From NCBI GenBank assembly GCA_017462755.1, contig JAFTQM010000076.1, positions 1-51,560 on the forward strand: DNA of 51,560 bases, in the 5' to 3' direction. Source of the stretch: Lachnospiraceae bacterium (lineage in GTDB: Bacteria > Bacillota > Clostridia > Lachnospirales > Lachnospiraceae). Made by a program: the position numbers and the translations under genes. This document shows, in pieces, positions 4,111 to 40,429 of the stretch. The notes under the pieces are model-generated. The model ran no database searches and had not been told where the DNA came from. It saw nothing but the letters and a program-made list of their open reading frames with translations. The number at the start of each line of letters is the position of its first letter. The stretch's first letter is position 1.

Positions 4111-4194
4111 AAGCGCACCTCCTCTCCGATTTGTTACTGTAGGTACCTATACTATATATCCCGTAAAAAATCCGATTTGGTTTTATGCATTCTT

Positions 4195-5085
4195 CTATCT
4201 TTCTCTATACAGCAGCCGCAGCTTACTGATAAAATCCTCCAGAATATATCGCGAATCAATTGAGGTATATACACGAATCATCGGTCTGCCCGGTTCAAAC
4301 CGATATGAGGTGTCCGGATTAAAAATCGGTGCCTCCCGGTATACATACTGTCCGCAATTTGGCTTCAGCGCCACACCAACCGCCGGCGAATCGCCAAGCG
4401 CCCAGCTTTCTCCATCCGTCCAGCCGGCACATGGCTGCATATTGTAGTTGACCATATTTTCAAACAAATGCCTGCCAATCCTGCCGCAAGGAGCAATCCG
4501 GTCCTGAATTTCAGCCAATCCGATGCTCATAGAGCCATATACATTGTTCGGAATCTGCCAAAACTCTACGCCGCTGCTCACCACCAAATTGATTGCATCA
4601 ATGTCATTTCCCGCATTGAATTCTCGGTGTCCGACTACGAAATTGTCCGGATTCTGACCGCCAATCCAGATAACCGTCATCTTCGAAACAATCTCCGGAC
4701 AAGCCTGAATTGCAGACGCCACGTTCGTAATTGCTCCCAAACAAAGCACATACAGCGGCTTTTCGTCCACTCGAAGCGCTTCTTCCATCAAGAATTTAGC
4801 TGCCGGAGAGATTTCCTTCCCCTCTACCTGCGCAAGCGCCCCTTCCTCTCCCATGTAAACCGGTACGGACAGCTCCATTGCTTCCAACACAGTCACGATT
4901 TCATCATAGCTCGCCTTGGTACTTCCTTCTACTCCAAAATGCTCTGCCAAAATCGCCTTAACCTCAAGCTTTTTACTCATTAACGCATGTGCAATCGCAA
5001 ACGGATCATCTGCCTCACATGCCGCATCCGTATCCACAATCACACGCAACCTCTTGTACTCCGGTACCTCATACTGTAAACCCAT
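4195..5085 (-). CDS. Nucleoside hydrolase (IUNH family)
   Basis: A cytoplasmic enzyme of 296 residues expected to hydrolyse the N-glycosidic bond of ribonucleosides, releasing base and ribose for salvage. The N-terminal metal-binding signature is DTDAACEADDPFAIAHA (residues 18-34). It is a variant two residues longer than the classic DTDPGxDD motif, known from other Firmicutes members. A second conserved stretch is FNAGNDIDAINLVVSSG, matching the family's internal substrate-binding region. I chose the start at 5085 because GGAGG lies 5 nt before that ATG. A longer reading frame to 5244 adds 53 residues that run into a hairpin repeat and look non-coding. Substrate preference (purine or pyrimidine) is not evident. 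Confidence 0.85.
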   Translation of the reverse strand: MGLQYEVPEYKRLRVIVDTDAACEADDPFAIAHALMSKKLEVKAILAEHFGVEGSTKASYDEIVTVLEAMELSVPVYMGEEGALAQVEGKEISPAAKFLMEEALRVDEKPLYVLCLGAITNVASAIQACPEIVSKMTVIWIGGQNPDNFVVGHREFNAGNDIDAINLVVSSGVEFWQIPNNVYGSMSIGLAEIQDRIAPCGRIGRHLFENMVNYNMQPCAGWTDGESWALGDSPAVGVALKPNCGQYVYREAPIFNPDTSYRFEPGRPMIRVYTSIDSRYILEDFISKLRLLYRER

Positions 5086-5199
5086 ACTATCCTCCATTTC
5101 TGAGCGACTTGTCGCGAAGAGGCGACGCAAATCTATTTTTCTCTCCACCGATACTTGCGCTGTTTTGCTACTTGCGAAACTCACAGAAAATGATATATA

Positions 5200-5341
5200 A
5201 GTCTGACAAGCTAACAAAAACATACACAGGTACTCGAAACCCACCGGTACTTAGGTGCTGTATTTTAGCACCTTATGTACCGCTGTGAGGTTTCGGTAGC
5301 GAGAGCGTGCCTGTGATGTTTTTCGTTAGACTGGTCAGACT
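5200..5341. repeat. Long hairpin repeat element, copy 1
   Basis: The ends AGTCTGAC (5200-5207) and GTCAGACT (5334-5341) are inverted repeats. The whole interval folds back on itself, with an apical stem at 5246-5281 (GGTACTTAGGTGCT paired with AGCACCTTATGTACC). In reverse complement it aligns over more than 100 bp with 39520-39655, including the shared unpaired segment CAGGCACGCT-TCGCTAC. Differences between the copies fall as paired changes in the stems. It lies between the nucleoside hydrolase and HD genes. No open frame or transposase is inside. It may be a non-autonomous mobile hairpin or a structured RNA. Confidence 0.8.
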
Positions 5342-5377
5342 CCAGAACACAAATCTAAAGTTGTGCAAGCACCAAAA

Positions 5378-38583: not shown

Positions 38584-39366
38584 TCATCCCAGTGCCACGT
38601 CCAGAATCATCATCACTGAAAATCCTGCTGCAAACATCAGCGTTCCCAGATTAGAATGCTTTCCCGCCGATGCCTCCGGAATCAACTCCTCGACTACCAC
38701 ATAAATCATCGCACCTGCCGCAAAGCTCAACAAATACGGCAATATCGGCACAATCAGACCGGCAAGTAAAATCGTAACCAACGCTGCCAACGGCTCTACC
38801 ACACCGGATATCACTCCGTAAAGAAATGATTTTTTCTTGCTTGCTCCCTCTGCCCGAAGCGGCATCGAGATAATCGCTCCCTCCGGAAAATTCTGAATTG
38901 CAATACCTATCGAAAGTGCCAATGCCGCACTTACCGTCATCTCAACGTCTCCGGACAGCCATGCCGCATATACCACACCGACCGCCATGCCCTCCGGAAT
39001 ATTGTGCAGAGCTACCGCCAGTACCAACATCGTCGTTCGCGAAAAATTGCTTTTCGGTCCCTCCGGTGCCGCAGCATTCAGATGCAAATGCGGCGTAATC
39101 AAATCCAACAGCCACAAAAACAAAATACCCAGCCAAAAGCCAACCACCGCCGGTACAAATGCCAGCTTACCCATATGCTCCGACTGATTCATCGCCGGTA
39201 TCAGAAGCGACCAAACCGATGCCGCCACCATGACACCTGCGGCAAAGCCCGTCAATCCGCGCCGCAGCATATCCTTCATCTGATTTTTTACCGCAAACAC
39301 ACATGCCGCACCCAGCGTCGTTCCCACAAACGGTATCATAATTCCTACAAAAGCTTCTATCGTCAT
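38584..39366 (-). CDS. ZIP-family divalent metal transporter
   Basis: A 260-residue polytopic membrane protein with about eight helices. The conserved metal pathway motifs are VALHNIPEGMAVGVVYA and IAIQNFPEGAIISMPLR, the histidine/glutamate pairs of TM4 and TM5 in ZupT-type ZIP proteins. A histidine-containing loop lies before TM4 (ITPHLHLNAAAPEG). It would import zinc and possibly iron or manganese. The start has AAGGAGG 8 nt upstream. No zinc regulator is adjacent. The HAD phosphatase follows 11 bp later. Upstream (39367-39808) lie a long hairpin repeat and the promoter region of a divergent flavoprotein. Confidence 0.9.
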   Translation of the reverse strand: MTIEAFVGIMIPFVGTTLGAACVFAVKNQMKDMLRRGLTGFAAGVMVAASVWSLLIPAMNQSEHMGKLAFVPAVVGFWLGILFLWLLDLITPHLHLNAAAPEGPKSNFSRTTMLVLAVALHNIPEGMAVGVVYAAWLSGDVEMTVSAALALSIGIAIQNFPEGAIISMPLRAEGASKKKSFLYGVISGVVEPLAALVTILLAGLIVPILPYLLSFAAGAMIYVVVEELIPEASAGKHSNLGTLMFAAGFSVMMILDVALG

Positions 39367-39488: not shown

Positions 39489-39703
39489 AGATAGATGATA
39501 GTAAAACTCAATTAAGATTTCCTAACGCCTGGCAAGATGAACCAAAACATAACAGGCACGCTTTCGCTACTTCATCCTCGCAACGGTACATAAGACGCTT
39601 AAAGACAGCGTCTAAGTACCGGCGGGATTCAAGTGCCTGTTTATGTTTTGTTCATTTGCCATGGCTTTACCATATGTTTTTAAGAGTTTTACAATCATCT
39701 ATA
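39489..39703. repeat. Long hairpin repeat element, copy 2
   Basis: Outer arms TAGATGAT-x-GTAAAACTC (from about 39490) and GAGTTTTAC-x-ATCATCTA (to about 39702) are inverted repeats. Inside are CAGGCAC/GTGCCTG, AAAACAT/ATGTTTT and an apical stem near 39575-39615 (GGTACATAAGACGCT with AGCGTCTAAGTACC). The central about 130 bp match the reverse complement of 5200-5341. It has no coding frame and separates the divergent ZIP and flavoprotein genes. Confidence 0.8.
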
Positions 39704-39808: not shown

Positions 39809-40429
39809 ATGAAGGTATTATTATTAAACGGAAGTCCACACAAAAACGGCTGTACTTACACTGCCTTGTCCGAGGCAGCATCACAGCTCGCCAAACATAA
39901 CATCGAGACCGAAATCATCCAGATTGGAAGCGAAGCCATTCGCGGCTGTACTGCCTGCGGTGCCTGTCGTGGCAAAGGTCTCTGCGTGTATGATGATATT
40001 GTAAATGAAGTTATTGAAAAAGCCAAAACTGCCGACGGTTTTCTGGTTGGCAGCCCGGTATATTACGCTTCCCCAAACGGTACACTGATTTCCTTCCTCG
40101 ACCGCCTGTTTTTTGCTGGAAGCTACGCGCTTGCTTACAAGCCTGCTGCCTCTGTTGTTTCTGCCCGCCGCGGCGGTACAACCGCTTCCTTTGAGGTGCT
40201 CAACAAATATTTCATGATGACCAACATGCCTGTCGTTACCTCCCAGTATTGGAACATGGTACACGGCAGCTGCGCAGAGGATGTACAGAAGGATGAGGAA
40301 GGCTTGCAGACCATGCGCCGTCTCGCCGACAACATGGCATGGCTGTTAAAATGCATCGAAGCCGGCAAGGCACAGGGCATTACTCCTGCCGAACCGGAAC
40401 CGGTTGTTCGTACAAATTTTATACGCTAA
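39809..40429 (+). CDS. Iron-sulfur flavoprotein-like NAD(P)H-dependent reductase
   Basis: A 206-residue flavodoxin-fold protein. The FMN phosphate loop is LNGSPHKNGCTYTAL (6-20) and the isoalloxazine loop GSPVYYASPNGTL. Between them is the compact cysteine motif C47-x2-C50-x2-C53-x5-C59 (CTACGACRGKGLC), which in iron-sulfur flavoproteins binds a 4Fe-4S cluster. That suggests an electron-transfer or quinone/oxygen-detoxifying role rather than a simple NADPH:FMN reductase. The ribosome-binding site is CGGAG. The gene is alone, convergent with the LacI regulator, and preceded by the hairpin repeat. Confidence 0.85.
   Translation: MKVLLLNGSPHKNGCTYTALSEAASQLAKHNIETEIIQIGSEAIRGCTACGACRGKGLCVYDDIVNEVIEKAKTADGFLVGSPVYYASPNGTLISFLDRLFFAGSYALAYKPAASVVSARRGGTTASFEVLNKYFMMTNMPVVTSQYWNMVHGSCAEDVQKDEEGLQTMRRLADNMAWLLKCIEAGKAQGITPAEPEPVVRTNFIR

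Follow-up and report, generated by a model that had tools for sequence, protein, structure and literature searches.

Two long hairpins lie in opposite orientations in the window, the whole stretch of 51,560 nucleotides analysed here, and where their stems differ in sequence the differences tend to fall as pairs. A sequence-only reading had taken this covariation between just two copies as a sign of selection on the structure, either as a structured RNA or as a mobile hairpin, and had named correction of one arm by the other through template switching as an alternative. The locus therefore raises two questions: what kind of element do these hairpins represent, and what keeps their arms complementary? 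Our answer to the first is that they are, very probably, two old members of a bacterial MITE family, whose non-autonomous insertion elements measure about 210 bp.

The two hairpins of the window

Copy 2 (39489-39703) has a minimum free energy of -90.3 kcal/mol, against -41.2 +/- 4.4 kcal/mol for its dinucleotide shuffles (z = -11.15), and copy 1 (5200-5341, minus strand) has one of -68.7 kcal/mol, against -32.7 +/- 3.6 kcal/mol (z = -9.95); for either copy, none of 200 shuffles folded as low. The earlier description of both as near-continuous hairpins is thus borne out. The paired differences that it listed are likewise seen in the sequence: going from copy 1 to copy 2, GTGCT/AGCAC becomes ACGCT/AGCGT, CAC/GTG becomes CGC/GCG, one A-T pair becomes T-A, and CTAAC/GTTAG becomes TGAAC/GTTCA. 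The segment said to be kept between the copies, CAGGCACGCTYTCGCTAC, occurs twice in the window with up to three mismatches, where 0.07 occurrences are expected. The view that no named family fits also holds for Rfam at the gathering threshold, since a tRNA was the sole match in the window and neither hairpin was matched; a permissive search with the hairpin returned four matches, all far under their gathering scores.

Aligned with complete elements of 200-211 bp from another genome (G192, described below), copy 2 appears as a whole MITE-like element of 210 bp on the plus strand (39492-39701), which folds end to end at -88.1 kcal/mol. Its left terminal inverted repeat (39492-39509, plus strand) is TAGATGATAGTAAAACTC, a degenerate form of TAGRTAATTGCGAAACTY, and its right one (39684-39701, minus strand) reads TAGATGATTGTAAAACTC on the minus strand. 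The core hairpin (39526-39668, plus strand) matches our covariance model R1 at 149.4 bits, although copy 2 is itself in the alignment from which R1 was made. Within the core are a mini-hairpin, GC-GAAA-GC (39560-39567), which is GNRA-type on the minus strand and bulges from the long stem, and a conserved upper stem, GGTAC-ATA-AG...CT-AA-GTACC (39585-39620, plus strand), with an asymmetric internal loop and a 7-nt apical loop at 39600-39606.

Alignment of copy 1 with copy 2 and one G192 element gives a MITE-like unit of 209 bp on the minus strand, 5166-5374; the span assigned to this copy earlier takes in the core alone. Its two terminal inverted repeats are both degenerate, TGCTACTTGCGAAACTC at 5166-5182 (plus strand) and TGGTGCTTGCACAACTT at 5358-5374 (minus strand). 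The core (5198-5341, minus strand) matches R1 at 146.1 bits, with copy 1, too, being in R1's source alignment, and its mini-hairpin, GC-GAGA-GC (5299-5306), lies on the plus strand, opposite to the element's reading. No target-site duplication is visible at either window copy. Because of this and of the degenerate ends, the limits of both units are inferred only, and both copies are probably old.

Copy number and distribution

In the window's own assembly (G000), the CAGGCACGCTYTCGCTAC segment occurs 30 times with up to three mismatches, against 2 occurrences of a reversed control. Judged by eye, 29 of these matches fold into the same type of hairpin, L029 being the exception, and R1 was built from the 29. 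Run over this 2.73-Mb assembly, R1 gives 52 matches that represent 33 places, namely 31 full-length copies, one copy cut by a contig end and one remnant; the other 19 matches are the opposite strand of the same palindromes. In five congeners R1 found no match, two of those assemblies being only 67-68% complete.

A search of related genomes had been proposed in the sequence-only reading. Run on 200 sampled genomes of the same family, with up to 15 candidates scored per genome, it detected the hairpin at E<=1e-4 in 71. Judging by shared contigs, the sampled family would be Lachnospiraceae: L163, from genome G130, shares an identical run of 1900 bases with L094, which comes from a Lachnospiraceae MAG. 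When GTDB contigs were scanned with a DNA pattern, at least 108 stretches matched; among the matches listed are Roseburia porci, Coprococcus catus, Lachnospira, Blautia, Eubacterium and many other Lachnospiraceae. Plasmid and phage collections held no match to one G192 element. Related genomes appear to have a common copy at the same place in L063/L127 and in L097/L099, and some copies have thus been inherited between species. Several MAG records titled Bacteroidales or Muribaculaceae (JAMPFJ and JAMPHJ; L074, L098, L114; L057, L070) carry several element copies each; these titles are probably wrong.

Inverted ends and target-site duplications

Many copies are non-coding elements of about 210 bp with inverted ends, TAGRTAATTGCGAAACT. 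Matches to the end sequence are clearly more numerous than those to a reversed control in 9 of the 11 element-bearing genomes. They do not clearly exceed it in the hairpin-bearing genomes G030 (3 versus 6) and G195 (1 versus 0), and the hairpins there therefore have other or decayed ends.

Genome G192 contains 46 forward and 43 reverse end matches, and from these 89 we judge that it holds about 45 elements. When 32 stretches were fetched, a pair of terminal inverted repeats delimited an element in 31, with a length of 200-211 bp in 25 and of 263-266 bp in the other six. Target-site duplications of 9-14 bp flank 22 of the 31 elements, 14 of them perfectly, whereas only 1 of 930 swapped flank pairs gave one; eight are 12 bp long, seven 11 bp, four 13 bp, two 14 bp and one 9 bp. 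So large an excess over swapped flanks indicates insertion with target-site duplication. Among 116 copies from many genomes with enough flanking sequence, 24 have inverted ends with a flanking direct repeat, compared with 6, 9, 4, 6 and 2 in five flank swaps; the ends are recognisably of the TAGRTAATTGCGAAACT type in 15 of the 24 and doubtful in the remaining nine. No clean empty site was found, the orthologous loci L101/L126 and L071/L120 being too diverged for comparison.

These ends bear on whether the hairpins could be REP/REPIN-like elements, mobilised by a Y1 (RAYT) transposase that acts on single-stranded hairpins. The hairpin shape, the many intergenic copies and the convergent arrangement of 7 of the 8 close hairpin pairs among the matches listed would all suit such elements. 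However, REP/REPIN elements, whose partner is a Y1 (RAYT) transposase, are not known to make target-site duplications, and duplications together with terminal inverted repeats, both of which are present here, do not fit single-strand Y1 transposition. Given also that the insertion sequence with matching ends (below) encodes a DUF772/DDE transposase, we consider this explanation highly improbable.

Element size varies beyond the common form. Elements of 263-348 bp occur at L297, L300, L378-L382 and L384, and two of these, L297 and L300, have additional hairpins nested in the apical loop or branching there, as though growth took place at the hairpin's tip. L296 (124 bp) and L298 (48 bp) have no core and keep both ends; the core may be dispensable for movement, or these may be deletions that followed insertion. 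In G192, a lone element end (L281, 203-219) lies beside a 263-aa ORF (318-1109), near a complete element at 4192-4455.

A candidate autonomous partner

If the hairpin is mobile, a transposase with matching ends should be sought, as was suggested earlier, and insertion sequences of about 1.75 kb with the same ends were indeed found. An IMG/VR scan for the exact end sequence gave nine contigs. In L313 and L317, inverted ends 1796 and 1767 bp apart enclose transposase frames of 485 and 507 aa, respectively. Both proteins match DUF772, and their DDE matches are weak (DDE_Tnp_1_6, below its cut-off, in L313; DDE_Tnp_1, just above its cut-off, in L317). The best NCBIfam model for both is IS1182 (NF033551); in this and in combining DUF772 with a weak DDE match the candidate partner resembles IS1182, yet the scores of 68-69 bits against a cut-off of 270 mark it as a distant relative and not a certified member. 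The same ends, with up to two mismatches to the left- or right-end form, occur 1745-1811 bp apart in L318, L319, L322, L324 and L347, while L320 has an IS-length end pair only if four mismatches per end are allowed. L322 has both ends exact and a 12-bp duplication, AATTCTATATTG, and L313 has a duplication of 10-11 bp, CATGAAAGAA; none was found at the other six of the eight IS-length end pairs (L317, L318, L319, L320, L324 and L347, of which L318 is without its left flank).

The hairpin core was found in none of 16 loci searched at E<=1, nine of which are IS loci. The hairpin element is therefore not a simple deletion derivative of the insertion sequence, with which it has only the ends in common. 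Relatives of the transposase are present in 18 of the 200 genomes (protein search, E<=1e-20), many as fragments or with stops, and the hairpin in 6 of these 18 (G012, G015, G030, G052, G092 and G130), no more than expected from its occurrence in 71 of 200 overall. DUF772 was present in 5 of 15 genomes searched and was not found in G000 (81.7% complete), G192 or G099; G192 has many copies with perfect duplications, yet no DUF772 was found in it. Our reading is that the elements outlive their transposase or use an undetected relative. DDE_Tnp_1 (PF01609) was also considered as the partner and rejected, only 3 of 8 element-bearing genomes having PF01609, and G192 none.

Taken together, the dispersal of the copies, their inverted ends and duplicated target sites, and the existence of an insertion sequence that shares these ends lead us to classify the family as a bacterial MITE, probably mobilised in trans; with the absence of R1 matches from the five congeners, they uphold the mobile-hairpin half of the sequence-only reading. 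Each unit is one long, near-continuous inverted repeat, consisting of TAGRTAATTGCGAAACTY ends, a short asymmetric linker, a long stem and the core, with the core made up of the bulged mini-hairpin, the asymmetric internal loop and the 7-nt apical loop. We think it likely that movement took place in trans, with an IS1182-like transposase or a relative acting on the ends of the elements, and that elements persisted where the transposase was lost. This classification explains a repeat present in 71 of 200 sampled genomes and ties its commonest end type to a transposase.

Covariation and mismatches in the stems

To the second question, that of the complementary arms, the covariation test proposed earlier was applied. 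Alignment A2 comprises 103 matches at E<=1e-8 from 96 sources, which are 63 of the 80 listed genome-contig loci, L163-L185 and 10 of the 29 G000 copies; left out were 17 loci (mostly cut by contig ends), L134-L161 and L186-L191. Further copies keep pairing: 93.0% of A2 cells pair, against 69.6% when shuffled, and 38 of 42 pairs have changed on both sides. Covariation scores 0.572, compared with 0.143 after shuffling and at most 0.084 when partners are slid by 1-3 columns, although A2 was fitted to the model and hence leans towards it. In an unfitted alignment from one genome (A1), 20 of the 42 pairs have changed on both sides.

One interpretation of such covariation is that the hairpin is a regulatory or trans-acting structured RNA whose fold is under selection and which has merely been duplicated. 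If selection acts on an RNA of one strand, G-U should be accepted there but the opposite mismatch should not, and a purine-riboswitch control from the same family behaves in this way, with 87.3% Watson-Crick, 5.4% G-T and 1.0% A-C cells (15 sequences, 20 pairs, 299 cells). No such one-strand wobble bias was seen in the hairpins. The A2 core has 95.8% Watson-Crick, 0.9% G-T and 1.5% A-C cells over 39 pairs (3960 cells), three poorly aligned pairs having been dropped after inspection, and 92.1%, 0.8% and 2.3%, respectively, over all 42 pairs (4266 cells). Whole G192 elements, including their outer arms, have 87.4%, 4.6% and 3.4% (25 copies, 79 pairs), and mismatches are thus not rare outside the core; for this count, the alignment took in the 25 elements of 195-215 bp but not the six of 263-266 bp, and the pairs were taken from the fold of one copy. 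In the RNA's favour, the core mismatches include a slight excess of those that are G-U on the minus strand (59 versus 36 cells, 16 versus 7 pair columns).

The orientation of copies relative to genes was also considered. Eighty of the 103 copies lie between two mechanically called ORFs (at least 100 aa, within 600 nt), and relative to the hairpin both flanking genes run forward in 34, both backward in 32, divergently in 10 and convergently in 4. This lack of bias argues against a strand-specific role in a host transcript and, together with the lack of wobble bias, leaves selection as a host RNA without support. The transposon ends and target-site duplications that copies carry and the lack of an Rfam family at the gathering threshold also speak against the RNA, which we regard as unlikely in spite of the one-strand features described in the next section. 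Thus, a structure-dependent constraint over 103 copies stands, as the sequence-only reading had supposed, but the structured RNA in which it might have consisted is little favoured. The family may serve as a warning against taking strong covariation by itself as proof of an RNA gene.

The alternative raised earlier, that the paired changes come solely from template-switch correction at the quasi-palindrome, without selection on structure, calls for the same data. Template switching at quasi-palindromes can produce both compensatory changes and loop inversions, according to a study that deals with RNA hairpins (PMC8794818). In the A2 core all four Watson-Crick pair types occur, with few intermediates at deep divergence, as such correction would have it. 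On the other hand, among six close G192 copies, chosen by eye, only 1 of 11 distinct stem variants is paired and 10 are not. Among G192 copies about 9-12% diverged, the distinct stem variants are 23 paired, 24 G-T, 24 A-C and 28 other. Paired states therefore seem to build up with time and not to arise at once.

Unpaired features and the folded strand

Correction between arms should also erase bulges, yet the bulged mini-hairpin and the internal loop are among the best-conserved parts of the core. The mini-hairpin, read on the strand opposite to that of the sequence-only reading, has a GNRA loop closed by GC/GC or by a covarying stem in 102 of 103 copies. The loops in A2 are GAGA (52), GAAA (23), GCAA (17), GGGA (7), GGAA (2) and GCGA (1), the exception being AAGA, and the third loop base is a purine in all 103. 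Outside A2, loops of AAGA occur in L019 and L026 (G000) and of GTAA in L375 and L383 (G192). Loops of the GNRA kind are characteristic of RNA, and DNA, too, can form stable loops of a similar sort.

Of the 99 copies with a 7-nt apical loop, 96 have it in the same orientation, one has it inverted and two are ambiguous; the remaining four of the 103 copies have longer loops. Correction by template switching should invert loops, and a single inversion in 99 speaks against it. This test is not a clean one, since published inversions, too, were found to be rare and linked to conserved loop sequences (PMC8794818). Considering the loop, the conserved mismatched features and the unpaired variants of close copies together, template-switch correction is unlikely to be the whole story, though it may help to match the arms; as the sole cause, we find it about as improbable as the structured RNA.

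The GNRA-type mini-hairpin and the fixed orientation of the apical loop do argue that a folded strand is recognised. They also count on the RNA's side, the GNRA rule holding on the strand opposite to the one first read. Within the mobile-element reading, the need for a folded strand would keep the arms complementary, with template-switch correction between the arms as an aid, and the mismatched features of the core would persist through recognition, perhaps by a protein acting on the folded strand. We put the chances of this account as roughly even. The family also constitutes an unusually clear natural experiment, since well over a hundred copies retain the bulge, internal loop and apical loop although the sequence of their stems turns over. 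With it one can ask what need a transposon has of a folded strand, and to what extent hairpins stay paired by correction between arms rather than by selection.

A probable second carrier of the core

Another end sequence, CTTGAGTTTCCGCATTTTW, is common in the window's genus, with 49 matches in G001, 31 in G005 and 14 in G004 against 0, 2 and 2 for the control. These three genomes contain high-copy palindromic elements (e.g. L261-L280) with CTTGAGTTTCCGCATTTTW ends and differing interiors, several with 8-bp duplications; no transposase was found for them. An end pair of this type was present in 23 of 26 loci tried. The 8-bp duplication is exact, with a one-base shift allowed, in five (L263, L264, L265 and L268 from G005, and L278 from G004) and matches at 7 of 8 positions in four (L262, L266, L267 and L019). 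Without shift, the mean match over the 23 loci is 4.26 of 8, versus 2.29 when flanks are swapped. Among G000 copies with second-type ends, only L019 reaches 7 of 8, the others having 2-6.

Five G005 elements (L261-L265) hold an apparent diverged core at E 0.0004-0.009 in an 18-kb search, with the mini-hairpin GCGAAAGC and with CTTAGTGTCCGCTGCG. The short G005 copies L266 and L268 are core-less, and the interior of L270, a G001 element, is of another kind. The G005 cores were not among the R1 matches when whole genomes were searched, and their homology to the hairpin core is therefore only probable. These sequence matches make it probable that a second type of element, which differs in its ends and has duplications of 8 bp, also carries a diverged form of the core. 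If the homology is right, two transposon systems carry the same structured core.

One idea considered was that in the longer G000 copies the core is nested in CTTGAGTTTC palindromes that were already there, as congeners carry such palindromes; it is weakened in that G005 elements with these ends themselves hold an apparent diverged core. A more speculative possibility, which we advance tentatively and think rather less likely than its negation, is that the core hairpin is a module functional in itself, recognised as a folded single strand (RNA or ssDNA) and handed on from one unrelated MITE family to another, the first having TAGRTAATTGCGAAACT ends and duplications of 9-14 bp, the second CTTGAGTTTCCGCATTTT ends and duplications of 8 bp. 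If so, the core would be a structure-coded passenger that helps small transposons to spread or be tolerated across Lachnospiraceae.

Relation to known elements

Bacterial MITEs such as ERIC, NEMIS/Correia, YPAL and QMITE are treated in two reviews (PMC2229807, PMC10969869). As described there, the present elements resemble them in a size of about 100-300 bp, short inverted repeats, target-site duplications, a mainly intergenic location and transcripts that would form long stem-loops. By the same descriptions, they differ in their ends, duplication length and core sequence; moreover, the folded core with its bulge, internal loop and apical loop is here kept across many genomes while the stems turn over, and a diverged core is probably found with a second kind of end as well. 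REP/REPIN elements with RAYTs (PMC3116915, PMC3733652 and PMC2817692) are similarly high-copy intergenic hairpins, sometimes in inverted pairs; unlike these, the hairpins described here are much longer, have target-site duplications and have a candidate DUF772/DDE partner. Literature on Lachnospiraceae MITEs, IS1182 MITEs, MITE structure and, narrowly, gut-genus MITEs, with subscription papers mostly outside its scope, gave no description of this hairpin family. The hairpin element thus belongs to a known kind of element, within which it makes up a new family whose structured core is unusual.

Neighbouring genes and hairpin pairs

Copy 2 is flanked in the window by a ZIP transporter gene (38584-39366, minus strand) and an FMN reductase gene (39809-40429, plus strand), and copy 1 by two minus-strand genes, one for an HD-domain protein and one for a nucleoside hydrolase. 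The 23 copies of A2 that do not lie between two ORFs comprise nine at contig edges, eight far from genes and six inside a mechanically called ORF. Clusters of ORFs adjoining copies account for 24, 9 and fewer of 134 loci, the 24-locus cluster being, at a guess, a common ABC-type gene.

Hairpins also occur in close pairs with a gap of less than 450 nt. Among the matches listed, there are eight such pairs (L178, L170, L183, L179, L092, L091, G111:C22:162093-162700 and L068), seven convergent and one, L068, in tandem with a weak second member. Two convergent hairpin pairs 5.9 kb apart in G000 have nothing in common but the hairpins. In G111, two close pairs form composite units, apparently with inverted ends of their own.
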